A stretch of DNA of 64,000 nucleotides, taken from positions 62,001 through 126,000 of the forward strand of contig CAMPDV010000505.1 in the NCBI GenBank assembly GCA_946699065.1, in the 5' to 3' direction. Position numbers and translations under genes: made by a program. Shown in pieces: positions 7,803 through 64,000 of the stretch. Under the pieces are notes generated by a model. It did no database searches, had not been told where the DNA came from, and was given only the letters and a program-made list of their open reading frames with translations. Source of the stretch: Loxodes magnus. Taxonomy: Eukaryota > Ciliophora > Karyorelictea > Loxodida > Loxodidae. How positions within the stretch are numbered: the first letter of the stretch is position 1; each line of letters starts with the position of its first letter.

Positions 7803-10800
7803 ATGGCTGAATCCAACAGGTGCAGCTAATGCTTAGTTCATTTCGACTCTTAAATTCGAATTCCGGTAATCCTTCCTTGTGGACATCAAGTATGCCAAAT
7901 TTGTATTCTTGAAGAATACTTAAAAGAGGGTTCTAATCAGTGCCCAAAAAGAAACTGTAGAAAAGTTTCATTCAATGATCCAAAAAGTTTAATAAGCTAA
8001 AAGGGCTAATCAAGTGAAAGCAAATAAGAATATAAATAACTTCATCTTGAAGAAACTAAAATTGAGCTATCTTATTAGCAAAAACCAAAACTAATAAAAG
8101 TTAAGATTTTAAGTGAAAATGAAGAAGAGATAAACTTAACAGTAGAGGAAGGAGAATCAATTGAATAACTGAAATAAAAAGTAGAAAGACTAGAAGGAAT
8201 TGATGCTGATTTTTATGAACTTTATAGAGGATAAGAAAAATTAGATAGTTAGCATAGAATAAATAAAATGGAGAATAAAGATGAAGTTTAGCTAGACTTA
8301 AAGTTGAAGGAATGTAATTAATATAAATTTAAGGAGGTGAAAAATAAGATTTAGGAAGTAAAAAATAAAGATAGAAAGTAATTAATAAAATATTAGTTTT
8401 CGAGATAATGAGAAAATAATATGGTAAATAATATAATAATAGAATGTAAATAATAATAAAAATTAGAAAGTATTAAATAATCAAAAATAGGAGAAAGTAA
8501 GAAAATTAAAAAAGGCTAAAATGATTTCGAAAAAAGTTAGAAATAAATATATAGGAGGTAATTTTTAAAAAAGTGTGTAATATATTTAACAAAAGTTAGT
8601 AATACTTTAAAAACTAGAAAGTAATAAATAAAATTTAAGAATGTAATAAAATAAATAAGATTGTAAGAATACTAAGAAAGGGAGTAATAATTAAATATAG
8701 AATGTAAAAAATAAAGAAGACTGTAAAATAATTATGTTAAGTTGGTAATTTAGCAAATACAGAAAGTAAATTATTTATTATATAGCAAGTAAAAAATCAA
8801 ATAAAGGAGGTAAAAATTAAAATAAGATGGTATTTCTATTTAAAATAGAATGTAAGATAATTTAAATATTTATAGTTGGTAAGATATTTTAAATATTTAT
8901 AGAATGTAATATATTTAAATATTTATAGACGGTAAGATATTTTAAATATTTATAGATTGTAAGATATTTTAAATATTTATAGATTGTAAGACATTTTAAA
9001 TATTTATAGATGGTAAGATATTTTAAATATTTATAGAGAGTAAGATATTTTAAATATTTATAGATGAGTAATATATTTAAATATTTATAGATTGTAAGAT
9101 ATTTTAAATATTTATAGTGAGTAAGATATTTTAAATATTTATAGATAGTAAGATATTTTAAATATTTATAGAGAGTAAGATATTTTAAATATTTATAGAT
9201 TGTAAGATATTTTAAATATTTATAGAGAGTAAGATATTTTAAATATTTATAGTGAGTAAGATATTTTAAATATTTATAGATGGTAAGATATTTTAAATAT
9301 TTATAGAGAGTAAGATATTTTAAATATTTATAGATCGTAAGATATTTTAAATATTTATAGTGGGTAAGATATTTTAAATATTTATAGTGGGTAAGATATT
9401 TTAAATATTTATAGATTGTAAGACATTTTAAATATTTATAGTGAGTAAGATATTTTAAATATTTATAGATGGTAAGATATTTTAAATATTTATAGATAGT
9501 AAGATATTTTAAATATTTATAGTGAGTAAGATATTTTAAATATTTATAGTGAGTAAGATATTTTAAATATTTATAGATTGTAAGATATTTTAAATATTTA
9601 TAGTGAGTAAGATATTTTAAATATTTATAGAGAGTAAGATATTTTAAATATTTATAGTGAGTAAGATATTTTAAATATTTATAGTGAGTAAGATATTTTA
9701 AATATTTATAGATTGTAAGATATTTTAAATATTTATAGTGAGTAAGACATTTTAAATATTTATAGAGAGTAAGATATTTTAAATATTTATAGTGAGTAAG
9801 ATATTTTAAATATTTATAGATCGTAAGATTTTTTAAATATTTATAGGACGTAAGATATTTTAAATATTTATAGATTGTAAGATATTTTAAATATTTATAG
9901 TGGGTAAGATATTTTAAATATTTATAGTGGGTAAGATATTTTAAATATTTATAGATTGTAAGACATTTTAAATATTTATAGGACGTAAGATATTTTAAAT
10001 ATTTATAGTGAGTAAGATATTTTAAATATTTATAGATTGTAAGACATTTTAAATATTTATAGATTGTAAGATATTTTAAATATTTATAGGACGTAAGATA
10101 TTTTAAATATTTATAGATTGTAAGATATTTTAAATATTTATAGATTGTAAGATATTTTAAATATTTATAGAGAGTAAGATATTTTAAATATTTATAGTGA
10201 GTAAGATATTTTAAATATTTATAGAGAGTAAGATATTTTAAATATTTATAGAGAGTAAGATATTTTAAATATTTATAGATTGTAAGACATTTTAAATATT
10301 TATAGAGAGTAAGATATTTTAAATATTTATAGAGAGTAAGATATTTTAAATATTTATAGATTGTAAGACATTTTAAATATTTATAGTGGGTAAGATATTT
10401 TAAATATTTATAGATTGTAATATATTTAAATATTTATAGATGGTAAGATATTTTAAATATTTATAGATCGTAAGATATTTTAAATATTTATAGATTGTAA
10501 TATATTTAAATATTTATAGATTGTAAGATATTTTAAATATTTATAGTGAGTAAGATATTTTAAATATTTATAGATGGTAAGATATTTTATAAATTTATAG
10601 AATGTAAAATATTTTTTATTGACAGTTTGTATTTAAAAACTATTATAGCTAGTGTTTTTTATTATTATAAGAGGGTATTAAATTACCTCAGGCGGTAAGA
10701 ATCTACTTCAGGTACCTTTTTAATTTTTGATTGTAAGAAATAATTATAAGATGGTTTTGATTTTATTGAAGCTAGTATTTGCTTATATGAGCTTGTATTA

Positions 10801-11205
10801 TTTAACCTAAGTTAGTAATAAAATAATATAGAATGTAATATTGTTAATATTTATAGGGGGTAATGATTGATTTGAAAAGAAAGTAATGCCTTATATAATT
10901 GATTAAAGAATGTTATAGTAATGATTAATATTAGATTATTTATACTAGGTAGTTATTTTTCTATTTTAGGATGTAAATAATTTAATGATAAGTAAGTTTT
11001 TGATTATAGAGGGTAATTTTGATATAAGCAGAGATGGAAATAACATTTAACAACTTTAAATATTTATCTTAAATTAATGTTTAATTATTAATTAAATTTT
11101 GATTTAGATACTTTAGTTATTTTAAAGTTACTAAACATATTAGCATTATATTTTAAGATCTTTGCTAACTTTCTTGCTTTTTTTATTTTATTGATGAAAA
11201 ATTGA
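7803..11205 (+). CDS. RING-finger plus ubiquitin-like protein gene with a hyper-split 3' half
   Basis: Exon 1 (7803-8336, 178 codons) is intact. ATG at 7803 is followed by a RING finger: C7-x2-C10, then CGHQVCQIC giving C-x-H-x2-C-x2-C, then CPKRNC, an unusual C-x4-C last pair. Residues about 95-165 form a ubiquitin-like fold, from IKVKILSENEEEINLTV to ENKDEVQLDLKLKE, matching ubiquitin's beta strands, helix (SIEQLKQKVERLEGI) and YRGQEKL. Such proteins usually act as E3 ligases. From 8337 the gene is broken by GT...AG segments of 16-24 nt. If these are removed, the remaining codons continue the exon 1 frame exactly and read EEKFSRQ-W-ENNMNKEKAK, then MISKKECLKNIGNTLKQEMN. The TGA at 8409-8411 must then be Trp. 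The last exon is taken as 11029-11205 (TGA at 11203). The 3' end and splicing are inferred; the whole product would be about 360 residues. Confidence 0.72.
8337..8851 (+). other. Left intron array: about 22 unrelated tiny introns, mostly one-codon exons
   Basis: The stretch splits completely into GT...AG segments of 16-21 nt, starting with 8337-8354. The pieces between them are single triplets: GAA, AAA, then a 27-nt exon, AAT, AAA, a 6-nt exon, a 21-nt exon, GAG, TGT, TTA, AAA, AAT, ATT, GGA, AAT, ACT, TTG, AAA, CAA, GAG, ATG, AAT. Every exon length is a multiple of 3, so all introns are phase 0 relative to the RING-UBL frame. The intron sequences are not copies of one another beyond the GTAA start and AG end, so tandem duplication alone does not explain the spacing. 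Splicing itself is inferred; no RNA evidence is available here. Confidence 0.7.
8852..10603 (+). repeat. 27-bp satellite made of a 24-nt intron plus one codon, about 65 units
   Basis: The tandem unit is 24 constant bases, beginning GTAAGATATTTT and ending ATTTATAG, plus 3 variable bases. The constant part has canonical intron ends; the variable triplet lies exactly where the one-codon exons lie in the flanking arrays. Triplets seen are ATT, TGA, AGA, TGG, ATG, ATC, ATA, GAC, plus TTG, AAT and ACG at the left edge. Intron variants include GTAAGACATT (several units, mostly following ATT) and a 23-nt form starting GTAATATATTT. Higher-order copying is visible: the triplet order TGA-ATT-TGA-AGA-TGA occurs twice in succession around 9540-9810. 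Because 24 is a multiple of 3 and contains no TGA in phase 0, retaining or skipping any unit keeps the frame. One unit near 9064 has a 4-nt spacer (ATGA) with a 23-nt intron. Confidence 0.9.
10604..11028 (+). other. Right intron array: about 17 tiny introns with one-codon exons
   Basis: After the satellite the pattern reverts to non-identical introns. They are mostly 16-26 nt (for example a 17-nt GTATTAAATTACCTCAG) separated by TTT, CTA, AGG, GCG, a 21-nt exon (or one longer intron), ATG, CTA, CTT, TTA, AAT, GGG, AAA and AAT. The last few units (10918-11009) can be cut in more than one way, with candidate introns of 31 and 37 nt. The final clear intron is 11013-11028. The encoded residues read NFLRA, VPFQFLI, MLLLNGK, a mildly hydrophobic run unlike the satellite part. 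Confidence 0.62.
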
Positions 11206-11430
11206 TTCCTATTAAGGAGATGTTGGAATTAGTAATTAAGGTAATATTTTGATAATAGCTAGAGTTTTTTGCTGTGTATTAGATTTCTTGATAATAGTTC
11301 TTTGATTTTTAAATTATGTCTAGAAGTGTTAATTTTATATCCTTTCTAATTAATTAATTTCAAAAAAAAAGTTTTTGGACCGGAAACTCCTTTCCGATTG
11401 CACGATCCGACGCTCTCTTTTTAAGTAATA

Positions 11431-11664
11431 ATGGGAATATCCTGCTGTGCTCCAGACACAGCTGCTAGGGAGCTCCATCGCTATGAGCAGCAAGGCTTCA
11501 AGCCCCTACCAAAAGCGGATAATCTCAAAGACAGCGTTCCCTTCAGAAAATTACTCTGACCAGGGACTTTCTCAGCGACAGGAAAAGAACTTGTTCCTAG
11601 CCATAAAACCAGAAAGTTTAGTCACGAAGGTCATTCTCAGCTCCCACCATCTTTTCAATTATGA
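11431..11664 (+). CDS. Small protein with N-terminal MGISCC (77 residues)
   Basis: A GC-rich island stands out from the AT-rich surroundings. ATG at 11431 opens a frame of 77 codons ending in TGA at 11662-11664. The protein begins MGISCC, the pattern of an N-myristoylation site followed by palmitoylatable cysteines, so attachment to a membrane is plausible. It contains RYEQQGFKPLPKADNLKDSV and an in-frame TGA at codon 43 (RKLL-W-PGTFSAT). A second copy near 32.8 kb keeps the same frame, the same TGA and the peptide around it, which supports this frame over the others. GC-rich sequence continues about 50 bases upstream and may be the 5' leader. I do not recognise the family. It could also be a fragment of a larger dispersed gene. 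Confidence 0.5.
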
Positions 11665-22510: not shown

Positions 22511-22559
22511 TTATATCAGTAAATTATATTATATATAATACCTAAGAAATTACTTATTT

Positions 22560-23260
22560 CTGTAGCAAAACCTAATAAATCTTAGCAGAACGTGGTCATT
22601 TACCTCCTTTAGAAAATAAATAATAATTAACAAATGTTATCAGGGAACTTAATTAACGAACTAATTTGAAAAAATTCTTTGGGAAATTAAAAATCAGAAA
22701 ACTCAACTTTACGATAGGATTAAGCTCTAAACTTGTTCCTGTAGCAAATTTAAGGAAGAATATTAAAGATAGAATAGATCATAGAGGAAATTTTAAATAT
22801 TTTAAACTCTTGGCCAGAACATATCTAATAATTAAATGATCCAATGGATATTAAAAAAAACTCCAATATAAGAGATTCCCTATTGGAGAGTAGTGATATG
22901 TTGGTATTGCTAGTGAGCAGGAAGTAAAGTAAAAAGTTGCTACTAATTTAAATAAAAAGAACATAGAATAATAGAGAATTAATGGTAAGATACATTTAAA
23001 AAATACTGCAAAAGTGAAGAATACTTTATTGAAAAAAATATTCCAGCTAAACAAAGAAGCTTCTTATATCTGGTAAATTAGTTCAATAGAAAATTATTGG
23101 GATTCGATCTATAAGAAAAAATCAAGAAAATTAATCTTAAAATCTTCAAGATTCATGACAGTGAAGACTCAAGCAAGTTTTAGGTGAATATTTTATTTAA
23201 TATTAAGCTTTTTGAATTTTGACAAACCAAATAAAGGTGAAGTCACATTTATCTAATATC
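22560..23260 (+). pseudogene. Decayed ORF of a repeated family (copy A of family X)
   Basis: This coding-like block has relatives at 54340-55020 (the other duplication copy) and, more distantly, at 40915-41525. Shared features are a stretch around DMLVLLVSRKQSKK, a motif LNKEASYIW...SIENYWDSIY, and a conserved 3' terminus AAATAAAGGTGAAGTCAC. A single-base difference near 23023 (AATACTTT here, AATTACTTT in copy B) shifts the frame relative to copy B. The protein family is unknown to me; repetition at three loci suggests a mobile element. Confidence 0.5.
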
Positions 23261-23269
23261 TATCTATGT

Positions 23270-26200
23270 TTGATGGAAAGATCATTAATTTTCCAGCAAA
23301 GCGAAATATAAAATTAAAGAATAACTATAAAAATTTATAAACAAAATTAATATAAAAATATTAAACCATTATAAAAAAGTAACTATTTCTTAAAAGAATA
23401 AATTCTTACTTCATTTTATTTCATTAGTTTTAAAGTAGTACGGAATAGAAAAAATATGAAGCTATAAAATTTTATTAAAATAAAGTAAAATGTTTTTTAG
23501 TTTTAGATTGAAGCTTTCTTGGTCTTCCAAAACGCTTTTGTATATCTTATAAAATATTTAAAATAAAAAATTATGACTTTTATTAAAATTTATTAGAACA
23601 CCATTAAGTTCCATTATATTAACTCCATTTTACCTAAATTCAAAAATTATTTTTTATTATGATTGTTTGCTTTTAATTTTAATTTAACCTTGATAATTCG
23701 ATAGTTATTTGGCATAATCCTTTCCCTTATAATAAAAAAAGAAGTATTTCTTTCATATTTATAGCAAAAATATAAGAATTCTAATTATTTCCTATAAAAA
23801 TTAAGATAGAATAATTCTAAAATTTAATTATTTTAAATTTATAGATTTTTTGCAGAAAAAAATTAAATTTTTAAAATGAAAAACAGTACTATTTGTGTTG
23901 CTTCAATAATATTTATTTAAATTATATTAACTTAATAATAGCAGAATAATAGATTTTCCCAATAAAATTTTAACTAATCTTAGATTTTATAAAATATTAA
24001 TTTTTTTAAAGAAAATAAAGAATAAATTTTTTTAATATAATTTTTGACAATTAGAATCCCTTTTAAATGATAAATATCTATAAAAAGAATAAAATTTATA
24101 ATTTATTGATAAATATAATTAGCATTCAATATACTAAGTAAATTTATTTAATTTAAAATAAAATGTTTATAAATATAAATTATTATAATTACTTAAATAT
24201 ATTTAAAAACAATTTCTTTTTAATTTTCTACTTTATGTAACTATTTAATTTTAGATAGCAATATATAATAATTAAATTCATCTTTTAAACTAACTGCTTT
24301 TATTTACACTTAATAAATTTTACTTTGATTTAAGCAAATCTTTTCTAGAAATTTTCCATCTATCATAACTTCCCTAATATTTCTTAATTTCTAACTAATT
24401 TCTAAAGTGCAACTAATAATCTCATCAAATTGTTTTTATTTTAGGAGCAATATTTTCTTAAAGTTATTCATTATTATTTTATCAATTATCGATTTAAAAA
24501 TGTTAAATTTAAGTTTGAAAAAGTAGTAGATTATGATAGTAAAGAAATATAAATTTTATTTATAAGTAATTAAGAAAATTATTTAAGTATACTAATAAAT
24601 GATATAACTTCTATTTTAGACTAAAATAATCCCTATTATCTGTAATTACTTCTTATTTTTACAATAATTTGTTACAAAATATAATAAACATTTTCATATT
24701 CCATAGTTATTGAATAATTCAGAGTAATTAATGAAAAATTATAGTAATTATACAAAATAATTTCAATAATATGCTAGTTTCTAAACTGATAAGAGAAATG
24801 TTTTTTATGAGTTACTTATGATTAGTTTTTACATTTATAGTTTGAACTTCAAGTAATTCCAATCTTGAAGATCTAAAATTTATTTATTCCAGATTTTTAT
24901 TGATTTTCATTTTAAAAATTGGAAAAAAACAACCATAGAGTTTTTCTTTCACGTAAAAATCATAGCAACTTCAATTTTTTCATAAAGCGAAAAGGTTTTT
25001 TTAATATCTTAGCTGTATAATTCCTTTTTAATTGATATCATATAAGTAAGTAATAAATAATAATATAGAATAGATTTAAGAAGAATAGTATCTAATGCTT
25101 AATAAAATATTATGCTAATTATTTAATTAATAAAACTACTTATTATTTTAAGCTTTTAAACACTAATTTCTTTTAAATTTGTTACTATAAGAAAATATTC
25201 TAATTATAGTTGTTTTAATAAAATGATGCTTTTTGGTATTATATAAACTTTTGTATGATATTCGAAATAGTATAAGTTAAATAGCTAATAAAAGGTGATT
25301 AAATTTAATTATCTTCTTTAAAATTATACATAAAAATGAAAAAGATGCTAGGCAAAGATGAACAAACATGTTATAAACATTTTTTAAAGCATAAAGAATA
25401 AAATATAGTATAAAAGATTTATTCTGAGGTTATTTTGTAATTATAGAATAGAAATATATAACCTATTTTTAATAATTATGAAAAACTTATATGTAAGACA
25501 AAAATCTCTAAATAATCAAAGCTGCAATTATCTATAAATTTAATAAATAAAATATATCTTCAGTTAAAAAATAAAAAATAAATTATCTAAAATTTTATAC
25601 ATTCTTAAACATTCATATAAATAATGTTAAGGAAAAAATTAAAATAGAAACTCTTAAAAATAAAATTAAAATAGCATAAAAGTAAGCTATCTTCATTCAG
25701 GAAATTATTAAAAAAATAAAAATTGAAAAGTTATATAAATTACACTATACTAGTAAATAAAAGTATAAATATTCATAAATATAAGATTATTAAAATATTA
25801 TTTTAATCATAATTATTACTAATTTAATTAATTTTAAATTTTATTTAATTAGATTTAATTTAGTTGCAAAATATAGTATTAAATATAACCTTTATTCAAT
25901 TTTATAAGGTTAAATTTTTTCTTATTTTTTAATTATCATAATATATTTTAAGGATAAAAACAACAGTCATAAATAGCGTTAACACATTAAAAAAAAATTA
26001 GTCAAAATTTAGTTTTTACATTTTATATAAATAAAGGAAAAATTAAAATAATGTAAGAATATATAGTAGAATCTTAATTTAAGAGAATATAAAATAATAT
26101 ATTAAAATTAACTCCAAAGAAACAAATCTCTTCTGCAAAAACTTATTAAATCTTAAATGATGTTGTACAAGATATTTTCTTCTTTTAATGAAGAGATAAA

Positions 26201-29200
26201 AATTAACTAATACTATTAGTAATCTTTTTTAACAATTTTTTAATTTCATCAACACTTCAGATTACTTAAAATCGGAAAATAAATTTTTAAAATAGAAGTT
26301 AGCCCTAAACCCGTCCATAGAGGAAAAGAATCTGCCAAATAAGATGAGCAATGAAGCTTCTTAATTAAAAGACTTTAAGACAGGTATTAAAAAGCAAAAA
26401 AATTTAGTGATGATGTAAGTTGAACAACCAGATTAACTGAAAAAAAAAAAAAATAAGGAGATCTAAGAAGAGATTCTATGAATGCCACTCTCAGAAGCAT
26501 CTGCTTAGATATTGTACTTAATTTGAAAAGAAGAAAACCTTAAATGAGCAAAATAGATTTTTGATTATATCTAAAGGAATCTATAATAATAAGAAACTGA
26601 GCTAAAGTGTTATTAATCCTTTTATAAAGACTAAGATGAGCTTAGATTAATTAGAGAATATGGCATCTTTTAATGATTGATGATTAGAGATTTACTTTTC
26701 TAATTTAATTTTGATTTTTTCAAAGAATTCGAAAGTTAAATCAATTCTCAATGAAATTGTTTATTTTATATTTAGGACAAGAAGCGAGATTGAGTAATTA
26801 AAAAATTAATTTAAATTTAATTTACTTGATGTATCTAATTTAAATCACGTAACTATGCTGTAATAATCAAAATATTAAATTTCTATATTTGGTCCTTTCG
26901 AATAATTGATTTTTTATTATTTTCAAAAATAAAATAATTAATTTTGGAAACCAAATTATTTAATATTTCTTAAAATTTTTAATTTAAATATTACATAAAT
27001 AGCACAATTAAAAAAACGCTGGTAAAAAGCGTTTTTTTTGTAATTATAAAGTGAAGATAACATTTATTTTCGATTCCGATAATAAAAATTCTAATTTGAG
27101 TGAGAAAAAACTTTTTGTCATAAGATAAATTTTTTGAGAAAATCTAGTAGATTAAGATAAATTCTAAAATAATTTGATTCGATATTTAAATTATTTCCAA
27201 TATTATAACATTTGAAGATTATAAATTAATATAAAAATTAATTAATTCATAACTATTAGCTATAACTGCAGACTTGAATATAAGTCGAAGATCAGATAAT
27301 TATGATAATGTGATATTTAAATATCGGTTTGATTTATATAAATATTGAATCACAAATTTAACTTAAAATGAGTGATAAAAAATTGAAGTTAATATAAACT
27401 GCTGTTATAATGATAAAGGTAAGAGTAATTTAAAATTATTAATTATTTGATTAAAAATTAAATTTTTGAAATAAGTTTTATATATTAAGTTAAATAATAA
27501 ATTTTTTTGCACCCAGTATTTTTGGACATTTATCTTTAACTTAGTATGGAAAATTTTACAAAAATACAATTAATATTCAGTTAAAAATTAAAAGTTTTTA
27601 TTTTATCATTTATATTATTGCAAAATACTTCAGCTTTTAAAAAAATTTGTAGCAAAAGATCTATTTTTTTGGATTATAAAGAGTAAAAATTAATTATTAA
27701 TAATAAATAAAATAAAAAATTTATTGATTTTATGTTTATCAATATTTTAGAAAAATAAAAGACTTCAAAATAGAAATAAAGATGTAAAATAGTAAGTTTT
27801 TTATAAATAAAATAAATAGTAACTTCTAAATTTAAATATAAAAATTACTAATTCAGAGATAGTATTTGAATAGTAACTTATTAGAATTAATATAAATAAT
27901 AGATATTAAAAATATAATAACATCTTATTTTAAATAAATATATATCAAATAAATAGTAAGTAAGTTTTATATAAAGTCTATTATTATGCTAATTTTGGTA
28001 AAAAAGCTAAATTTTTATTTCATTTTTATAGATTTAATTTTATTAGTTTTAAGTGTTTATGTAATTTTAAAATATATATTAATTAACAGTTTTAGAACTA
28101 TAATACTCTGATCAATCTAGCAAGAAATGAAATAAATATGATAGTAAATTTTTTCTGATAAGGTTTAAGATATGATTAAAAAATTAATTAAAAGAATCGT
28201 TAATAGGTATATTTTTCAAGACTCATAATTTAAATGGTTTAACAAATACTAGGATTTCTTTTTTGTACTTATAAAGTTTTCTAATCATACTTATAATTAT
28301 TTTCTATCTTCATTATTAATATTATTATTATTAAAAGAGTAATTTTTCCAATTTTCGATAAAGGTACAATGGATTCCAAAACCATATGCAAATTATTCTC
28401 ATAGCAATCTATTTATTTATTTTGAACTTATTATATAACTTTAAATATATTTAATTTAAATCATTTTTATTAGATACTTACTTTTGAGTTCTTAGCAAAC
28501 TATCGACCATTATTACTCTCTTTTCTTGATAAAATTACTTAATTTTAAATATTTAAAGCCCTGAAATTATTCTTATAAATATAGATATAAATATAAATTA
28601 ATATTATACTTCCTATATCTAGCTTAAATTAAATCAAATTGCATAACTTTAACCTTAATCTAAAAGTCTAGAAATACATCTCTTCCATGTAAAAGGACAA
28701 GTAAATCTTTGAACCCATTATCTTCCTCTTGTATATTTCATTTGGCATTATTTGAGATTTAATTATTTCTCTTCATGTTTTATCTGATTCCATTTTTCTT
28801 AACTTCTTCTATAATTTTATTGTTTATAAATCTTAAAACTTCTTTATAGGAGGTAATAAAATGAAAAATAAAGGAGATTTCTCCTAACATTAAAACTAAC
28901 TTAACTTTGAAATTTGAGAAACAAAATTCTATAGTTTATAAGTAACTCACTTATTGGTTGCTGATTTATTGAAAAAGGGAAAGAAATTATTGTGTTACTT
29001 TAATTTAATAAAGCTAAAAATGAATTATTTCTTATTTCTTGCATCATTTACTATTTCATTTACATTTCATTTATTTTTATATCTTACGGATCTTATTTAA
29101 TTGAAATTAAAAGTTAAAATATTGCAAAGCTTTATTATAAGTACGTCTTTTTTCCTTTTTTAATCAGGTTTATAGTTTTAATAATCATAGAAATTTATAA

Positions 29201-29330
29201 AAAATGCTATAACTTAATATTATAATATTTTATAATATATTGATTCTATTTAAGTTTAATATTATATCATAAAAATGTTATAACATATAACATAATTTAT
29301 TAAAGTTATTTCACCTTTTTTTTGGTTAAT
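23270..29330. other. Interior of duplication copy A, AT-rich, no gene recognised
   Basis: Long AT-rich sequence conserved in copy B, with no motif that I can support. Short GC-richer patches (about 26300-26500 and 28370-28740) are kept in both copies but give no recognisable protein. Confidence 0.45.
27010..27038. other. Short hairpin with oligo-T tail, conserved in both duplication copies
   Basis: AAAAAACGCT, a 7-base loop GGTAAAA, then AGCGTTTTTT form a 10-bp stem. Copy B at 58772-58803 keeps the stem while its loop differs (AATAAAA). It resembles a terminator-like or small-RNA hairpin, but no transcript is known. Confidence 0.4.
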
Positions 29331-29339
29331 CACAAAATT

Positions 29340-30400
29340 AGAGTTTGTATAAGTTTTTTCTTAGCAGAAATCTTCTTCTTTGAAGTAGATTTTAATTATT
29401 TCTCGCTTTCCCTTGTTTCCACTAAGACTTGCATTCATAAACTTTCCTACATCAAGTCCATATTGTCTTTTACTCCATTCTCTTGCTTCCATTAGTATTA
29501 GAGGTATTGCTTGGATGATTTATTGTTCTTTTCTTCTATATAATTTTGCCTCTTTTGTGCAGTAAATTCAAAATATTTTATTGCATGTCTTTCGTTTTTC
29601 TTTTTTTCTTTTTTCCTAAAAATTCCAACAGTTCCTTACCTTGCAACCTTGCTTCTTGCAATATCAGCACCTTATTATCGGTCTTCTTTATTTATAAATT
29701 AATACTTATAATTGAAATTAAAGAGGGTGGAAATGGGACCTGAGATGCACAAGGGACCTTCAGCAGGTTTAAAGGGACTTGCGATGAAGATGCAATCCCC
29801 CGTGCTGAGAAATAGGCCATAGAAAGGCTGAACTACCCTCCCTCAATAACTTGTGCACTCTGTGGTGCATTCATCCTTGGACTTCCCAACTAAGGGACTC
29901 AATTACACCTCCTACTAACTTAGACTGAGGTGCCGCCTTGGAGTGATCTCTCCACCTTTTAGGAGCTACCTAGGCAGATCGGCGGTTTCTGCCAGTTGAA
30001 GACGGACTGGATGGCGATATTCGCCTATAAAACCGAGAAATGGGTCCAGGCGAGACAATAGGTTAGCCCAGGAAGACAACAACAAGAAGAAAAGATTAGT
30101 GATGATGTGCACTTAACACACATCAGGTAGGCATCTATTAAGATAACAGTCCCTTCCTTAACACTTAATTTAATTTAATTTAAAAATTAATACTTAATTT
30201 ATTTCTTCTCGTTCTGTCTCTACATCCATGGGATCATAGTTTATCTTATTGTGTAGTTCCTGATTCTTTTCCTAATTTATTCTTTGTAATTTTTCTTCGG
30301 TCTGCTGGATTAATGAGTATATTTGCCAGATCAGAAGGTCTATTTACGATATCTTATTTTAATCCATTGTTTTCCTGTTTCAGTTAACCAACTTGCTAAA
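29340..30400 (-). pseudogene. Gag/ORF1-like gene with zinc knuckle, split by an insertion (copy A)
   Basis: The minus strand carries the same gene as 61130-61680, described there: a coiled coil, YDPMDVE, and a knuckle-like CWYCKKQG. Here a LINE-like insertion sits between the coding parts at 29709-30183, so the gene is interrupted. The downstream part includes GLDVGKFMNASLSGNKGKRE. Confidence 0.5.
29696..30196 (+). mobile_element. 5'-truncated LINE-like insertion with 13-bp target-site duplication
   Basis: The insert (29709-30183) is flanked by perfect copies of AAATTAATACTTA at 29696-29708 and 30184-30196. The empty site survives in copy B at 61463-61475 with one base changed. The insert is much richer in GC than its surroundings. 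One frame is open through about 140 codons and contains CALCGAF...QLHLLLTQ, like the Cys-His zinc finger (C-x2-C...H) near the C-terminus of LINE ORF2 proteins, though the last Cys is missing. It ends in repeated AATTT. Truncation at the 5' end, a tail repeat and a variable target-site duplication are hallmarks of target-primed reverse transcription. The reverse transcriptase itself is absent. Confidence 0.8.
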
Positions 30401-30901
30401 TTAGAACAAAAATTTTGTTTGATAATTCTTAGAGTATCTGTTAGAGCTTAAGGTTTTCATTTTGTAGATGTTAAAGATCAATCTTTTCTTATTATATTTT
30501 GTTAGTCTAGTTTGAAGATTGTTATTTTTTAGGGGCCATTTTATATAATATATAATATTTACAGAAAATTAAAATAAAATCTATATCTATTATAGTAGAA
30601 TTTATTTGATGCTATATTGAAATATTTACATTTTTAATTTGACTAACTAAGATCATTATACTTTCTATAAAACTGTTTCTTTTCCCTTTAATAAAATTTT
30701 TATTGTATTGTGCATTTAATTTTTTCTAATGTTTTAATTTCCCATTTTTTATTCTTTAGATATTAAAAAAAGGAAATTTATAATAAAGCATCTTTTTTTA
30801 AAATTGAATCTTTAAAATTAATCGAAAAAAACCTTAATAAAGTACGCCAATAAAAGAAAGAAAAACAGAAAAAGTGATAATGAAGTTCTTACAGTAAGTA
30901 A

Positions 30902-31235
30902 ATGGGAATAAAGAGGTTCGAAAACGGACAAAAGAGATTTGATTCTGATAAGTAATTTCTAGAAGAATTGCAGAAAATAGCTCGTGACAAATTGGAAAAA
31001 TTAATCTGATAGATATCAAAAAATGTATGTACTGCCTAAAGTAAATAAATAATAGAAAGATAAAAAAAAGAAAAATTAAGATTAAATGAAGAGAAAATGC
31101 GCAACTAAAAAACTTACGAAATTAAACTAATAAGTCTAGCAATTAAAACTTAAGAGTTAAGTATTTAAAATATTCTTTATATCAAAAAAAGAAAAACAAA
31201 GAAATTAAGATCAAGCTGGAGAAAAAGATACTCAA
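30902..31235 (+). CDS. Coiled-coil ORF at the end of duplication copy A
   Basis: ATG at 30902 opens MGIKRFENGQKRFDSDKQFL, then EELQKIARDKLEKLI-W and IIERQKKEKLRLNEEKMRNQ. The same frame is open at 62182-62516 with substitutions that keep the character (EELEKIARDKLEQLI). The heptad-like Leu and charged pattern suggest a coiled coil. Similarity between copies ends inside this frame, so the 3' end differs at the two loci. Function unknown. Confidence 0.45.
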
Positions 31236-32805: not shown

Positions 32806-32946
32806 AGAGCGGATAATCTCAAAGACAGTGTTCCCTTCAGAAAGCGACTCTGATCAGGGACTTTCTCAGCGACAAATAAGGAACTTGTTCCTAGCCAGAA
32901 AGTGTAGTCAAGAAGATCAATATCAGCTCCCACCATCTTTTAAATT
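32806..32946 (+). pseudogene. Truncated relative of the 11.4-kb MGISCC gene
   Basis: The block starts at AGAGCGGATAATCTCAAAGA and is closely similar to 11513-11655. In the matching frame it reads ADNLKDSVPFRK, then L-W(TGA)-SGTFSATNKELVPS. The first 27 or so codons, including the MGISCC start, are missing and the C-terminus is frameshifted, so this is a 5'-truncated copy. The retained TGA supports its reading as Trp. Confidence 0.65.
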
Positions 32947-32949
32947 AAT

Positions 32950-54290: not shown

Positions 54291-54339
54291 ATATCACTAA
54301 ATTATATATAATATCTAAGAAATAACTGATTTCTGTAGC

Positions 54340-55020
54340 AAAACCTAATAAATCTTAGCAGAACGTGGTCATTTACCTCCTTTAGAAAAGAAATAATAAT
54401 TAACAAATGCTATCAGGGAACTTAATTAACGAACTAATTTGAAAAAACTCTATGGGAAATTAAAAATCAGAAAACTCAACTTTACGATAGGATTAAGCTC
54501 TAAACTTATTCCTGTAGCAAATTTAAGGAAGAATATTAAAGATAGAATAGATCATAGAGGAAATTTTAAATCTTTTAAGTTTTTGGCCAGAACATATCTA
54601 ATAATTAAATGATCCAATGGATATTAAAAAAACTCCAATATAAGAGATTCTCTATTGGAGAGTAGTGATATGTTGGTATTGCTAGTGAGCAGGAAGTAAA
54701 GTAAAAAGTTGCTACTAATTTAAATAAAAAGAACATAGAATAATAGAGAATTAATGGTAAGATACATTTAAAAAATACTGCAAAAGTGAAGAATTACTTT
54801 ATAGAAAAAAATATTCCAGCTAAACAAAGAAGCTTCTTATATCTGGTAAATTAGTTCAATAGAAAACGATTGGGATTCGATCTATAGGAAAAAATCAAGA
54901 AAATTAATCTTAAAATCTTCAAGATTCATGACAGTGAAGATTCAAGCAAGTTTTAGGTGAATATTTTATTTAGTATTAAGCTTTTTGATTTTTGGCAAAC
55001 TCAATAAAGGTGAATCCTCA
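54340..55020 (+). pseudogene. Family X ORF, copy B
   Basis: Same element as 22560-23260. Here one frame stays open through GEQ-W-YVGIASEQEVKQK, IEKNIPAKQRSFLYLVNQFN and INLKIFKIHDSEDSSKFQ. The frame that aligns with the 40.9-kb relative (DMLVLLVSRKQSKK) is a different one, so which is original is uncertain. The 3' terminus has diverged (AATAAAGGTGAATCCTCA). Confidence 0.48.
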
Positions 55021-55029
55021 TTAATCTAA

Positions 55030-58000
55030 TATCTATCTATGATTGATGGAAATTTAATTAATTTTCCAGCAAAGTGAAATACAAAATTAAAGAATAAATA
55101 TAAAAATTTATAAATAAAATTAATATAAAAATATTAAACCATTATACAAAAATAACTATTTCTTAAAAAAATAATCTCTTATTTCATTTTATTTCATTCA
55201 TTTTAAAGTAGTATAGAATAGAAAAAATAATAAGCTATAAAATTTTATTAAAATAAAGTAAAATGTTTTTTAGTTTTAGATTGAAGCTTTCTTGGTCTTC
55301 CAAAACGCTTTTGTATATCTTATAAAATATTTAAAATCAAAAATTCTATCTTTTATTAAAATTTATTAGAACAACATTATGTTCCATTATATTAACTTCA
55401 TTTTACCTAAATTCAAAAATTATTTTTTATTATGATTGTTTGCTTTAATTTGAATTTAACCTTGATAATTCGATAGCTATTTGACATAATCCTTTCCCTT
55501 ATAATAAAAAAAGTAATATTTCTTTCGTATCTATAGCAAAATATAATAATTCTAATTATTTCCTATAAAAATTAAGATAGAATAATTCTAAAATTTAATT
55601 CTTTTAAATTTATAGATTTTTTGCAGAAAAAAGTTACATCTTTAAAATGAAAAACAGTACTATTTGTGTTGCTTCAATAATATTTATTTAAATTATATTA
55701 GCTTAATAATGGCAGAATAATAAATTTTCCCAATAAAATTTTAACTAATCTTAGATTTTATAAAATATTAATTTTTTTAAAGAAAATAAAGAATAAATTT
55801 TTTTAATATAATTTTTGACAATTAGAATCCCTTTTAAATGATAAATATCTATAAAGAGAATAAAATTTTTATTTATTGATAAATATAATTAGCATTCAAT
55901 ATACTAAGTAAATTTATTTAATTTAAAATAAAATGTTTATAAATATAAATTATTATAATTACTTAAATATATTTAAAAACAATTTCTTTTTAATTTTCTA
56001 CTTTATGTAACTATTTAATTTTAGATAGCAATATATAATAATTAAATTCATCTTTTAAACTAACTGCTTTTATTTACACTTCATTAATTTTAATTAGATT
56101 TAAGCAAATCTTTTCTAGAAATTTTCCATCTATCATAACTTCCCTAATATTTCTTAATTTCTAACTAATTTCTAAAGTGCAACTAATAATCTCATCAAAT
56201 TGTTTTTATTTTAGGAGCAATATTTTCTTAAAGTTATTCATTATTATTTTATCAATTATCGATTTAAAAATGTTAAATTTAAGTTTGAAAAAGTAGTAGA
56301 TTATGATAGTAAAGAAATATAAATTTTATTTATAAGTAATTAAGAAAATTATTTAAGTATACTAATAAATGATATAACTTCTATTTTAGACTAAAATAAT
56401 CCCTATTATCTGTAATTACTTCTTATTTTTACAATAATTTGTTACAAAATATAATAAACATTTTCATATTCCATAGTTATTGAATAATTCAGAGTAATTA
56501 ATGAAAAATTATAGTAATTATACAAAATAATTTCAATAATATGCTAGTTTCTAAACTGATAAGAGAAATGTTTTTTATGAGTTACTTATGATTAGTTTTT
56601 ACATTTATAGTTTGAACTTCAAGCAATTCCAACCTTGAAGATCTAAAATTTATTCAGATTTTTATTGATTTTCACTTTAAAAATTGGAAAAAAACAACCA
56701 TAGAGTTTTTCTTTCACGTAAAAATCATAGCAACTTCAATTTTTTCATAAAGCGAAAAGGTCTTTTTAATATCTTAGCTGTATAATTCCTTTTTAATTGA
56801 TATATTATAAGTAAGTAATAAATAATAATATAGAATAGATTTAAGAAGAATAGTATCTAATGCTTAATAAATATTATACTAATTATTTAATTAATAAAAC
56901 TACTTATTATTTTAAGCTTTTAAACACTAATTTATTTTAAAATTTATTAATATAAGAAAATATTCTAATTATAGTTATTTTAATAAAATGATGCTTTTTG
57001 GTATTATATAAACTTTTGTATGATATTCGAAATAGTATAAGTTAAATAACTAATAAAAGGTAATTAAATTTAATTATCTTCTTTAAAATTATACATAAAA
57101 ATGAAAAAGATGCTAGGTAAAGATAAACAAACATGTTATAAACAGTTTTTAAAGCATAAAGAATAAAATATAGTATAAAAGATTTATTCTGAGGTTATTT
57201 TGTAATTATAGAATAGAAATATATAACCTATTTTTAATAATTATGAAAAAATTATATATAAGATAAAAATCTCTAAATAATTAGAGCTGCAATTATCTAT
57301 AAATTTAATAAATAAAATATATCTTTAGATAAAAAATAAAAAATAAATTATCTAAAATTTTATACATTCTTAAGCATTCATATAAATAATACTAGCCAAA
57401 AATTTAAATAGAAACTCTTAAAAAGAAAATTAAAATAGCATAAAAGTAAGCTATCTTCACTCAGGAAATTATTAAAAAAATAAAAATTGAAAAGTTATAT
57501 AAATTACACTATACTAGTAAATAAAAGTATAAATATTAATAAATATAAGATTATTAAAATATTATTTTAATCATAATTATTACTAATTTAATTATTTTTA
57601 AATTTTATTTAATTAGATTTAATTTAGTTGCAAAATATAGTATTAAATATAACCTTTATTCATTTTAATAAAGTTAAATTTTTTCTAATTTTTTAATTAT
57701 CATAATGTATTTTTAGGATAAAAACAACAGTCATAAATAACGTTAACACATAAAAAAAAACTAGTCAAAATTTAGTTTTTACATTTTATATAAATAAAGG
57801 AAAAATTAAAATAATGTAAGAATATATAGTAGAATCTTAATTTAAGAGAATATAAAATAATATATTAAAATTAACTCCAAAGAAATAAATCTCTTCTGCA
57901 AAAACTTATTAAATATTAAATGATGTTGTACAAGATATTTTCTTCTTTTAATGAAGAGATAAAAATTAACAAATACTATTAGTAATCTTTTTTAACAATT

Positions 58001-61000
58001 TTTTAATTTCATCAACACTTCAGATTACTTAAAATCGGAAAATAAATTTTTAAAATAGAAGTTAGCCCTAAACCCGTCCATAGAGGAAAAGAATCTGCCA
58101 AATAAGATGAGTAATGAAGCTTCTTAATTAAAAGACTTTAAGACAGGTATTAAAAAGCAAAAAATTTAGTGATGATGTAAGTTGAACAACCAGATTAACT
58201 GAAAAAGAAAAAAAATCAGGAGATCAAAGAAGAAATTCTATGAATGCCACTCTCAGAAGCATCTGCTTAGATATTGTACTTAATTTGAAAAGAAGAAAGA
58301 CTCTAAATGAGCTAAATAGACTTTTGATTATATCAAAGGAATCTATAATAATAAGAAACTGAGCTAAAGTGTTATTAATCCTTTTACAAAGACTAAGATG
58401 AGCTTAGATTAATTAGAGAATAGGGCATCTTTTAATGATTGATGATTAGAGATTTACTTTTCTAATTTAATTTTGATTTTTTCAAAGAATTCGAAATTTA
58501 AATCAATTCTAAATGAAATTGTTTATTTTATATTTAGGACAAGAAGCACAACTGAGTAATTAAAAAATTAATTTAAATTTAATTTGCTTGATGTATCTAA
58601 TTTAAATCACGTAACTATGCTGTAATAATCAAAATATTAAATTTCTATATTTGGTCCTTTCGAATAATTGTTTTTTTATTATTTTCAAAAATAAAATAAT
58701 TAATTTTGGAAACCAAATTATTTAATATTACTTAAAGTTTTTAATTTAAATATTACATAAATAGCACAATTAAAAAAACGCTAATAAAAAGCGTTTTTTT
58801 TTTTGTAATTATAAAGTGAAGATAACATTTATTTTCGATTCCGATAATAAAAATTCTAATTTGAGTGAGAAAAAACTTTTTGTCATAAGGTAAATTTTTT
58901 GAGAAAATCTAGTAGATTAAGATAAATTCTAAAATAATTTGATTCGATATTTAAATTATTTAAAATATTATAACATTTGAAGATTATAAATTAATATAAA
59001 AATTAATTAATTCATAACTATTAGCTATAACTGCAGACTTGAATATAAGTCGAAGATCAGATAATTATGATAATGTGATATTTAAATATCGGTTTGATTT
59101 ATATAAATATTGAATCACAAATTTAACTTAAAATGAGTGATAAAAAATTGAAGTTAATATAAACTGCTGTTATAATGATAAAGGTAAGAGTAATTTAAAA
59201 TTATTAATTATTTGATTAAAAATTAAATTTTTGAAATAAGTTTTATATATTAAGTTAAATAATAAATTTGTTTGCACTCAGTATTTTTGGATTTTTATCT
59301 TTAACTTAGTATGGAAAATTTTAATCATTTTCACAAAAATACAATTAATATTCAGTTAAAAATTAAAAGTTTTTATTTTATCATTTATATTATTGCAAAT
59401 ACTTCAGTTTTAAAAAAAATTGTAGCAAAAGATCTATTTTTTTGGATTATAAAGAGTAAAAATTAATTATTAATAGTAAATAAAATAAAAAATTTATTGA
59501 TTTTATGTTTATAAATATTTTAGAAAAATAAAAGTCTTCAAAATAGAAATAAAGATGCAAAATAGTAAGTTTTTTATAAATAAAATAAATAGTAACTTCT
59601 AAATTTAAATATAAAAATTATTAATTCAGAGATAGTTTTTGAATAGTAACTTATTAGAATTAATATAAATAATAGATATTAAAAATATAATAACATATTA
59701 TTTTAAATAAATATATATCAAATAAATAGTAAGTAAGTTTTATATAAAGTCTATTATTATGCTAATTTTGGTAAAAAAGCTAACTTTTTATTTCATTTTT
59801 ATAGATTTAATTTTATTAGTTTTATGTGTTTATGTAATTTTAAAATATATATTAATTAACAGTTTTAGAACTATAATACTCTGATCAATCTAGCAAGAAA
59901 TGAAATAAATATGATAGTAAATTTTTTCTGATAAGGTTTAAGATATGATTAAAAAATTAATTAAAAGAATCATTAATAGGTATATTTTCAAGACTCATAA
60001 TTTAAATGGTTTAACTAATACCAGGATTTCTTTTTTGTACTTATAAAGTTTTCTAATCATACTTATAATTATTTTCTATCTTCATTATTAATATTATTAT
60101 TATTAAAGGAGTAATTTTTCCCATTTTCGATAAAGGTACAGTGGATTCCAAAACCATATGCAAATATATCTCATAGCAATCTATTTATTTATTTTAAACT
60201 TATTATATAACTTTAAATATATTTAATTTAAATCATTTTTATTAGATACTTACTTTTGAGTTCTTAGCAAACTATCAACCATTATTACTCTCTTTTCTTG
60301 ATAAAATTACTTAATTTTTAATTTTTAAAGCCCTGAAATTATTCTTATAAATATAGATATAAATATAAATTAATATTATACTTCCTATATCTAGCTTAAA
60401 TTAAATCAAATTGCATAACTTTAACCTTAATCTAAAAGTCTAGAAATACATCTCTTCCATGTAAAAGGACAAGTAAACCTTTGAACCCATTATCTTCCTC
60501 TTGTATATTTCATTTGGCATTATTTGAGATTTAATTATTTCTCTTCATGTTTTATCTGATTCCATTCTTATTAACTTCTTCTATAATTTTATTGTTTATA
60601 AATCTTAAAAATCCTCTTTATAGGAGGTAATAAAATGAAAAATAAAGAAGATTTCTCTTAACATTAAAGATAATCTAACTTTGAAATTTGAGAAACGAAA
60701 TTCTATAGTTTATAAGTAACTCACTTATTGGTTGTTGATTTATTGAAAAAGGGAAAGAAATTATTGTGTTACTTTAACAAAGCTAAAAATGAATTATTTC
60801 TTATTTCTTGCATCATTTACTATTTCATTTAAATTTCATTTATTTTTATATCTTACGGATCTTATTTAATTGAAATTAAAAGTTAAAATATTACAAAGCT
60901 TTATTATAAGCACGTCTTTTTTCCTTTTTTAATCAGGTTTATAGTTTTAATAATCATATAAATTTATAAAAAATGCTATAACTTAATATTATAATATTTT

Positions 61001-61120
61001 ATAATATATTGATTCTATTTAAGTTTAATATTATATCATAAAAATTTATAACATATAACATAATTTATTAAAGTTATTTCACCTTTTTTTGGTTAATCAC
61101 AAAATTAGAGTTTGTATAAG
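55030..61120. other. Interior of duplication copy B, AT-rich, no gene recognised
   Basis: Collinear with 23270-29330. No supported gene; the hairpin at 58772-58803 is conserved. Confidence 0.45.
58772..58803. other. Short hairpin with oligo-T tail, copy B
   Basis: Same 10-bp stem (AAAAAACGCT/AGCGTTTTTT) as 27010-27038, with a loop that differs at two bases. Confidence 0.4.
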
Positions 61121-61129
61121 TTTTTTCTT

Positions 61130-61680
61130 AGCAGAAATCTTCTTCTTCGAAGTAGATTTTAATTATTTCTCGCTTTCCCTAGTTTCCACTAAGACTTGCA
61201 TTCATAAACTTTCCTGCATCAAGTCCATATTGTCTTTTATTCCATTCTCTTGCTTCCATTAGTATTAGAGGTATTGCTTGGATGATTTATTGTTCTTTTC
61301 TTCTATATAATTTTGCCTCTTTTGTGCAGTAAATTCAAAATATTTTACTGCATGTCTTTCGTTTTTCTTTTTTTCTTTTTTCCTAAAAATTCCAGCAGTT
61401 CCTTACCTTGCAACCTTGCTTCTTGCAATATCAGCACCTTATTATCGGTCTTCTTTATTTATAAATCAATACTTATTTTATTTCTTCTCTTTCTATCTCT
61501 ACATCCATGGGATCATAGTTTATCTTATTGTGTAATTCCTGATTCTTTTCCTAATTTATTCTTTGTAATTTTTCTTCGGTCTGCTGGATTAAGGAGTATA
61601 TTTGCCAGATCAGAAGGTCTACTTACGATATCTTATTTTAATCCATTGTTTTCCTGTTTCAGTTAATCAACTTGTTAGAT
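61130..61680 (-). CDS. Gag/ORF1-like protein with a variant zinc knuckle
   Basis: On the minus strand one frame from about 61625 reads LIQQTEEKLQRINQEKNQEL (coiled coil), HNKINYDPMDVEIEREEIKQ, then RC-W-YCKKQGCKVRNC. The last is a CCHC-type knuckle spacing (C-x2-C-x4-?-x4-C) in which the His is replaced by Cys. The second knuckle residue is encoded by TGA. The YDPMDVE motif before the knuckle parallels VDPMDIE at 12.95 kb and VPMELEE before the knuckle at 19.2 kb, so the proteins belong to one superfamily. Downstream the frame stays basic. The equivalent gene in duplication copy A is split by an insertion. Confidence 0.55.
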
Positions 61681-62181
61681 TAGAACACAAACTTTGCTTG
61701 ATAATTCTTAGAGTATCTGTTAGAGTTTAAGGTTTTCATTTTGTAGATGTTAAATATCAATCTATATTTCTTATTATATTTTGTTAGTCTAGTTTGAAGA
61801 TTGTTATTTTTTAGGAACCATTTTATATAATATATAATATTTACAGAAAATTAAAATAAAATCTATATCTATTATAGTAGAATTTATTTGATGCTATATT
61901 GAAATATTTACATTTTTAATTTGACTACTAAGATCATTATACTTTCTATAAAACTGTTTCTTTTCCCTTTAATAAAATTTTTATTGTATTGTACATTTAA
62001 TTTTTTCTAATGTTTTAATTTCCCATATTTTATTCTTTTGATATTAAAAAAAGGAAATTTATAATAAAGCATCTTTTTTTAAAATTGAATCTTTAAAATT
62101 AATCGAAAAAAACCTTAATAAAGTACGCCAATAAAAGAAAGAAAAACAGAAAAAGTGATAATGAAGTTCTTACAGTAAGTA

Positions 62182-62516
62182 AATGGGAATAAAGAGGTTC
62201 GAAAACGGACAAAAGAGATTTGATTCTGATAAGTAATTTCTAGAGGAATTGGAGAAAATAGCTCGTGACAAATTGGAACAATTAATCTGATAGATATCAA
62301 AAAATGTATGTACTGCCTAAAGTAAACAAATAATAGAAAGATAAAAAAAAGAAAAATTAAGATTAAGTGAAGAGAAAATGCGCAACTAAAAAACTTACGA
62401 AATTAAACTAATAAGTCTAGTAATTAAAACTTAAGAGTTAAGTATTTAAAATATTCTTTAGATCAAAGGAAGAAAAACAAAGAAATTAAGATCAAGCTGG
62501 AGAAAAAGATACTCAA
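62182..62516 (+). CDS. Coiled-coil ORF at the end of duplication copy B
   Basis: Counterpart of 30902-31235, opening MGIKRFENGQKRFDSDKQFL and continuing EELEKIARDKLEQLI. After the duplication boundary the sequence runs into the gag relic, so no natural C-terminus is visible. Confidence 0.42.
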
Positions 62517-63104: not shown

Positions 63105-64000
63105 CCTTTTTACCCCAGTTGCTACTTTTCAGCGGGTTATCGGTTTTCTTTCCAGTGAGTTATAATAATCAAAATGACTTGGGTCGTCTAGTATGCTTCG
63201 CATGAAGAAGTAGTCTTCTGGTACGAGATAAAATCTGTCTAAGGTTGAAGTTTTCCTCTTGTACATTCTCCCGCTAGGATCACAGTAGATGCGATTTTGC
63301 ATTCTTCTTAAATTTTGTATCTTTTGTCTTTATTTCTTAATCGCTTACTGCTCCTGATAGGTTTAAATTCTCCAGTATTTTCTCTATTTTTTCAACAAAA
63401 GTTTTGAATTGTCTATAGAGGTGCCAAGCACTGCCACACAGGTAGCATTATTTCTGAGACTTGGCTTACTAGTTTTTTGCGGGAGAAGTAGGGTTAGGTT
63501 AGGAATGCCAATTCTCTTCTAGTTCCATCATTTCAGAAACTATTTTTTGCTGTTATAACTGCTCTTGAACTTTGTCCGACTTCTCGAGATGCTCCGTTAG
63601 CTATTATCTAAGGTCTTTCACTTCATTTCTAAGTCCCTGGACTTCCTTTTCAAAGCGGGCCTGGAGTTTCTAGTTTAGAGTCAGCCCGTTGTTATATAGT
63701 TTCATAACATATTCAATTTGGGCTTTGAGTCTTCCCACCTCCTGGTTAAGTTCGGTAATTATCATTGTTATTACTTCAGATTGTTCTTGTTACTCCGACT
63801 TAGTCGTTTAGAATTCCCTGACCTCTAGTATTTTTTTCTTAGGATTTTCAGCTCTCGGAGGGGTATCTAGTTAAGTATAAGGGTGCTTAAAGAAAGGCTT
63901 GAAGGTTGCTTACTACTAGTGTTAGGCCGTAGTTTGCTCAACTCCTTCAATTTTCATCTCTACCTTTGTCAAGTTGGTGAATGCCTTCCTTTTTTTATTA
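63105..64000 (-). CDS. Gag/ORF1-like protein with coiled coil and zinc knuckle, 5' end outside window
   Basis: The minus strand is open in one frame from the window edge to about 63105 and is clearly less AT-rich than its surroundings. Order: basic N-terminus (KRKAFTNLTKVEMKIEG), a Pro-rich linker, a long coiled coil (TELNQEVGRLKAQIEYVMKL and EKEVQGLRNEVKDLRQQLTE), then CYLCGSAWHLYRQF near 63450-63410, a C-x2-C-x4-H-x4 knuckle whose last Cys is Phe, and a basic tail (LSRTRRLLLHAKHTRRPKSF). Two TGAs near the end (after AKSHLL and after RPKSF) are Trp or stop. This is the best preserved ORF1-like protein here besides 18.7-19.5 kb. It is convergent with the relic at 62.5 kb. Confidence 0.62.

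Follow-up and report, generated by a model that had tools for sequence, protein, structure and literature searches.

On the forward strand of the 64,000-nt stretch of Loxodes magnus DNA analyzed here (the window, C505:62001-126000 on contig CAMPDV010000505.1 of assembly GCA_946699065.1), an uninterrupted exon encoding a RING finger and a ubiquitin-like (UBL) domain is followed on its 3' side, from about 8337 to 11011, by GT..AG segments, mostly 16-24 nt long, that stand 3 nt apart. We propose that these segments are spliceosomal introns and that the distal part of the gene is probably assembled from dozens of consecutive 3-nt exons. Pfam places a zf-C3HC4 domain in exon 1 above the cut-off (4.6e-06) and a ubiquitin domain just below it (1.3e-04). 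A dynamic-programming parse cuts 8314-11011 into 105 GT..AG segments, which fall into a left, a middle, and a right array (Table 1). The longest chain at exactly 3-nt spacing comprises 15 segments in the left zone and 9 in the right, against a maximum of 3 in either zone among 500 dinucleotide shuffles of each, and this bears out the spacing claimed in an original prediction made from the letters alone. At spacings of 1, 2, and 4-8 the two zones give chains of at most 3. The same limit holds in the remaining 1-kb pieces of the window, which is about 80% A+T, on both strands, apart from one chain of 4 that overlaps the array start, and on both strands of 23 arbitrarily chosen 10-kb pieces of this genome the longest chains are of 2-4. 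The right end of the array is uncertain and lies between about 10908 and 11011.

Table 1. Predicted features of the array gene in the window (positions in the window) and of the similarly organized genes on other contigs.
Feature	Position	Strand	Basis
Exon 1: RING finger and UBL domain, intronless, 511 nt, phase 1 end	7803..8313	+	Pfam, codon differences
First intron, 20 nt, sets array frame when removed	8314..8333	+	Parse; Viterbi at intron-opening 0.02; homologues
Left array: non-repetitive 16-24-nt introns, 3-nt exons, phase 1	8334..8851	+	Parse, homologues, conservation
Longer left-array exon, 27 nt	8397-8423	+	
Longer left-array exon, 21 nt	8515-8535	+	
Middle array: 65 units, near-constant 24-nt intron (23-nt four times) and variable triplet	8852..10600	+	
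4-nt exon ATGA of the window copy, moves middle out of left-array frame	9064..9067	+	
Right array: non-repetitive introns, 3-nt exons, one 21-nt exon (10712-10732)	10601..10908	+	
Probable 3' end of array, several parses possible, stop codon position not fixed	10909..11011	+	
C61 array: 88 introns of 16-31 nt; 3-nt exons 82/87; UBL exon in front, phase 1 end			
C10 array: 3-nt exons 69/80			
C16 array: 3-nt exons 46/56, behind a kinase domain	C16:342900-346100		PK_Tyr_Ser-Thr 6.1e-41
C41 array: 29-nt tandem intron with triplets ATG, TGA, GGA, ATT, then non-repetitive introns; UBL exon phase 1 end			

Exon 1 ends with ...GAA T, and when 8314-8333 is removed the first junctions read T|GA G|GA A|AA, which would be translated as KEWGKIFEIMRKQYEQKSQNDFEKRVFKKYWKYFETRD. 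It is because this segment is taken out as an intron that the codons of the joined frame are split N|NN, with the array introns in phase 1. The original prediction had missed it. Its claim that the RING-UBL frame continues through the array is correct once 8314-8333 is also removed and fails otherwise, the 3-nt exons are not the single codons it had supposed, and the peptide it quoted, MISKKECLKNIGNTLKQEMN, belongs to another frame than the joined one. Of the longer left-array exons that it listed, those of 27 and 21 nt are recovered and no 6-nt exon appears in the window parse. The same first intron and the same frame are chosen by a codon/intron Viterbi parse at an intron-opening setting of 0.02, a setting of 0.1 being unreliable because the RING domain is then cut as well. 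The L. magnus genome paper gives code 27 and introns with a mean of 19.3, a mode of 17, and negligibly few below 16 bp (PMC11441545). The 812 codons of three first exons (57 TAA, 42 TAG, and 1 TGA) fit code 27, and TAA and TAG are sense codons within the window's RING-UBL exon. All three frames of the array are open under this code, hence openness proves nothing. Residue conservation does distinguish the frames: among seven left-array sequences (L269, L271, and L272 left out), that of the joined frame was reached by 5 of 1000 column shuffles, compared with 341 of 1000 for the frame of the original prediction and 867 of 1000 for the third. A conserved Trp is encoded by TGG in the window and L270 and by TGA in C52, C77, C450, and C653, codons that are synonymous under code 27 only.

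The gene appears to be one of many copies. When the genome (705,730,643 bases in 7843 contigs) was searched with the left array, 40 of 385 first-look candidates were scored, and these matches, of which the window is one, have identities of 96-100%. Besides the window, which is L264, 11 near copies were compared, whole or in part (L261-L263 and L265-L272, with L268 unparsed). Exon 1 of the window is separated from those of L269-L272 by 12 codon changes that are synonymous and 9-14 that are not, whereas at random a synonymous fraction of 0.195 would be expected, and this excess points to purifying selection on exon 1. In the left zone of the near copies, all 8 indel columns lie within introns and none in the 622 exon nt, and four of the five variable exon sites are third positions of the joined frame, three of them synonymous. 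Five divergent homologues (C52, C77, C124, C450, and C653) align with the left array exon for exon. When 10 left-array sequences were fitted and eight counted (L269 and L271, near copies of L270/L272, being omitted), intron length varied in 22 of 23 slots, while exon length departed in only 2 of 176 cases across 22 slots, both of 6 nt (C52 and C124), by a fit that, it must be said against it, rewards template lengths. A template-free parse recovers the same run of triplets in C77 and C653, and also in C124 save for its 21-nt exon, which was cut. At the position of 8314-8333 the fitted homologues, C52 excepted, have a GT..AG intron. These kept exon lengths, together with the conservation in the spliced frame, support the prediction that, in a karyorelict-type ciliate, tiny introns alternate with 3-nt exons dozens of times in a row. 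Neither the recurrence of the architecture in many copies nor the hypervariability of its middle between copies had been part of that prediction. Among the 184 array introns of the eight fitted sequences, all of 16-24 nt, 177 begin with GT and 3 with GC, and 182 end with AG. GC is the commonest known donor variant, and it replaces GT in some array introns of L269, L271, L272, and others (for example, in about nine repeats of the L269 units CGG*TGA), a few TT, AT, and GA donors being present as well. The copies on C505, C156, C326, and C1099 lie on a single strand per contig, about 68-117 kb apart, as if large segments were tandemly repeated.

The layout recurs behind other genes. A junction pattern of two acceptor-NNN-donor motifs with a 17-nt intron between them has 571 matches in the genome, against 34 for the reversed pattern, and with an 18-nt intron 116 against 6. 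It should be noted that a 10-bp satellite, TAGATAGTAA, at about 925728-1012692 of C59 mimics the pattern and accounts for most of the places listed for the 17-nt version. Of seven places fetched outside the near copies, four hold arrays (C61, C41, C10, and C16), those in C1 and C154 are chance matches, and that in C6 looks like a decayed relative. Three of the arrays sit behind genes for ubiquitin-like proteins (C61, C41, and C10, each with a Pfam ubiquitin match above the cut-off) and the fourth behind a kinase gene (C16), and their introns are unrelated. RING matches fall below the cut-off in C61 and C41, and C10 has none at E 0.01. Chains at 3-nt spacing reach 33 (C61), 34 (C10), 14 (C16), and 21 (C41), whereas other spacings from 1 to 6 give at most 5 at these loci, except for 10 and 12 at spacings of 5 and 6 in the tandem C41 array. 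In viral and prokaryote collections the 12 longest chains of the 237 loci among the matches listed are of 6-10 segments, mostly short-period repeats where inspected.

Codon usage gives a mixed picture. With a model trained on exon 1 the joined frame scores best in the left array (4.8, against -9.1 and -25.8), and with one trained on three first exons it is best in the C61 array, where 140 of 5000 shuffles match it. The latter model was applied to the middle arrays of nine of the 11 parsed copies (L267 and L272 left out) and favors the joined frame in five (window, L261, L262, L266, and L269), with a near tie in L263 and another frame best in L265, L270, and L271. Several results weigh against splicing of the array into a protein in the joined frame. 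In the window's left array, the score trained on exon 1 is not significant against base shuffles (369/2000), the one trained on three first exons is matched by 2374 of 5000 shuffles and is lower than that of the originally predicted frame, and a generic codon model also prefers the latter. In the right array, 4318 of 5000 shuffles match the joined frame, and none of the five variable exon sites is synonymous; read entirely in 3-nt exons at phase 1, this array gives FSKGGTFLIFDYATFKWEKCY, in a frame that codon usage does not support. A synonymous-fraction test was not significant against column shuffles (0.251; 120/500), and exon 1 shows no synonymous excess among L269-L272 themselves (e.g., 4 vs 16). 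The array peptides of the window and C61 have no detectable likeness (465/2000 shuffles), and searches of the species' own genome yielded neither a spliced retrocopy nor a homologue that is clearly uninterrupted. Splice sites are lost in part in C52, C450, and L269, and the fit of C52 and C450 requires some non-GT/AG sites, so that decay may be under way in some copies. The window copy, with its frame-shifting 4-nt exon, could itself be a damaged family member; ATGA is absent at that position in the other parsed copies, and L272 has another 4-nt exon. Searches with the products were negative or weak. The spliced protein has no homologue at E<=10 among 547 candidates (5.8 billion proteins searched), no Pfam family was found for the array peptide, and the spliced left-array DNA had no match in its own genome in a search made without a positive control. 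The left-array peptide gave three weak matches there (best E 0.95, 43% over 35 aa), one weak match lying at C3281:2993-3097, and these neither establish nor exclude a homologue without interruptions.

The middle array behaves differently from its flanks. Of its 65 tandem units, 61 have exactly 3+24 nt, and among these full units the difference per site amounts to 0.596 for the triplets but 0.014 for the introns. The triplets are drawn from a small vocabulary (TGA, ATT, ATG, AGA, TGG, GAC, GGA, and a few others), and their order differs between copies: those that match the window at 99.6-100% over the upstream 1.26 kb have differing triplet strings, the window and L262 agree in 30 of 47 aligned units, and full agreement is seen between L262 and L267 only (49/49). 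The number of units ranges from 42 to 71 across the 11 parsed copies, two of which are truncated where the piece ends. In 78 comparisons of units with two matching units on each side, which are not mutually independent, the triplet differs in 13 (at every base in 7 of these) and the intron in 7. Insertion of intron copies into fixed coding triplets was considered and dropped, as near-identical gene copies have different middle arrays. No further copy of the 24-nt intron, with up to 5 mismatches and GT..AG kept, occurs elsewhere in the window, and the exact intron has no match in viral contigs. Splicing alone would not explain the constancy of the middle intron, because very different introns serve at both ends, and the best reading is recent homogenization of the units combined with selection or mutational bias for triplet diversity.

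Such a repeat might instead be translated without splicing, as a coding minisatellite of 9 residues with one or two variable residues per unit, between left and right arrays that are spliced. Indeed, 24 is divisible by three, the unit lacks UGA in two frames, an open frame of 733 aa exists under code 6, in 8 of the 11 parsed copies the units add up to a length divisible by three, and donors are broken in some units. However, introns of 23 nt, found in 7 of the 11 copies at 3-8 each, would repeatedly shift an unspliced frame, the middle introns have the same ends as the flanking ones, and the exon lengths add up to a multiple of three in all parsed copies but the window and L272 (9 of 11), although two of these nine are truncated and the parser favors threes. 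We consider a translated minisatellite unlikely.

More generally, the whole array could lie in one long intron or in the 3' untranslated region, with a protein that stops at the UBL domain or close to it and a GT/AG lattice that is a decoy or a fossil. The unspliced frame of exon 1 reaches a UGA at 8409-8411, UGA in Loxodes being stop or Trp depending on context (PMC11441545), and by codon usage neither the left nor the right array of the window is clearly coding. Against this, divergent homologues retain exon lengths while their introns drift, residues are conserved in the joined frame and not in the other two, and the joined frame is the best one in C61. We regard a noncoding array as unlikely too. 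Excision of the segments as DNA (internal eliminated sequences) is very improbable: ciliates are known to excise DNA between nuclei, but the assembly has the size of the macronuclear one, from which excised DNA would be missing, the ends and lengths of the segments are those of the species' introns, and extensive elimination is not reported in the consulted part of the L. magnus paper (PMC11441545). At a probability of about 0.84, we favor the reading that the locus is a member of a multi-copy family in which an uninterrupted RING-UBL exon is followed by some 100 spliceosomal introns separated by 3-nt exons. The best account of how it is expressed is that the tiny introns would be removed successively, and that the gene would encode a ligase-like RING-UBL protein whose C-terminal segment changes fast.

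In the mechanism that we propose for this spliced array, each intron of 16-24 nt would be recognized singly (intron definition) and the introns taken out in sequence, because a 3-nt exon falls within the footprints of both adjoining splice sites. Every splice would place the following donor 3 nt from the new junction. Skipping of any number of 3-nt exons preserves the frame, so errors would cost residues and leave the frame intact. The middle would evolve through exchange of 27-bp units, which would homogenize the introns but leave the coding triplet free to vary, or under selection to do so, and would give each gene copy its own C-terminal segment. We can only guess that this segment is a variable substrate-recognition tail. 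A bolder version is possible, though we rate it as rather doubtful, namely that a large E3-ligase-like family, whose layout is shared by a kinase gene, uses strictly sequential splicing as a diversity generator, in which the C-terminus would be encoded three nucleotides at a time between introns and the copies would diversify by swaps of 27-bp units. Recombination would then be able to alter single residues without any shared coding sequence, because the constant 24 bp are spliced out.

The array introns resemble the known tiny introns of L. magnus and the heterotrichs in their GT..AG ends, lengths of 16-25 nt, code 27, and very A+T-rich composition (PMC11441545). The L. magnus introns described in the consulted part of that paper, which deals with a macronuclear assembly of 706 Mbp, lie within ordinary genes, and it mentions no runs of 3-nt exons there, in contrast to the runs seen here (PMC11441545). 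In Drosophila homothorax a 3-nt microexon is spliced (PMC7392893). Such microexons of 1-3 nt are likewise spliceable, but they are isolated, whereas dozens stand consecutively here. A single-nucleotide exon is reportedly spliced in Arabidopsis. The micro-exon genes of schistosomes likewise have consecutive small exons in multiples of three and encode fast-evolving proteins, but their exons are of roughly 6-36 nt between ordinary introns, whereas the array has 3-nt exons and 16-24-nt introns repeated tens of times, which sets it apart from them. Introners and introner-like elements are near-identical introns spread over many genes; the many near-identical introns of the middle array are adjacent, at 3-nt spacing, in one gene, and the other arrays have other introns. 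TAL effectors and fungal HET repeats also reassort near-identical units that vary in one or two codons each, but their constant part is protein, whereas that of the array would be spliced out. A literature search, in which preprints and subscription papers were thinly covered and most items were judged from listings, returned no account of consecutive 3-nt or single-codon exons.

If transcripts confirm the arrays, these genes would have dozens of consecutive exons of 3 nt, well under the limits set by exon definition or by simultaneous binding at neighboring sites. With as many as about 100 splices per transcript, they would offer a substrate made by nature on which the spacing limits, order, and fidelity of splicing could be studied, a skip costing one residue. 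The copies also form a natural experiment in intron turnover, in which the ends keep their 3-nt exons while the introns drift and, in the middle, the introns are homogenized while the triplets differ. Genes of this kind would probably escape short-read mapping and ordinary gene finding, so that further examples may lie undetected in other genomes.

Rfam and tRNA scans of the window found nothing, and a marginal SNORD36 match was seen in another locus (L251:7997-8061, C8; 31.1 bits, cut-off 30, E 1.3). Downstream of the array, a G+C-rich island at 11373-11660 stands in A+T-rich surroundings and has no Rfam match; the portion 11514-11661 matches 32808-32947 at 84.6%. The window also contains direct duplications at 96.7% identity, 22525-29709 with 54298-61476 (about 7.2 kb) and 30174-31235 with 61454-62516 (about 1.1 kb), which are probably copies of one mobile or segmental repeat. 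Finally, an open frame on the reverse strand at 63280-63957 has no Pfam family above the cut-off, a coiled-coil look, and the motif CYLCGSAWHLYRQ, whose form we take to resemble a gag-type zinc knuckle.

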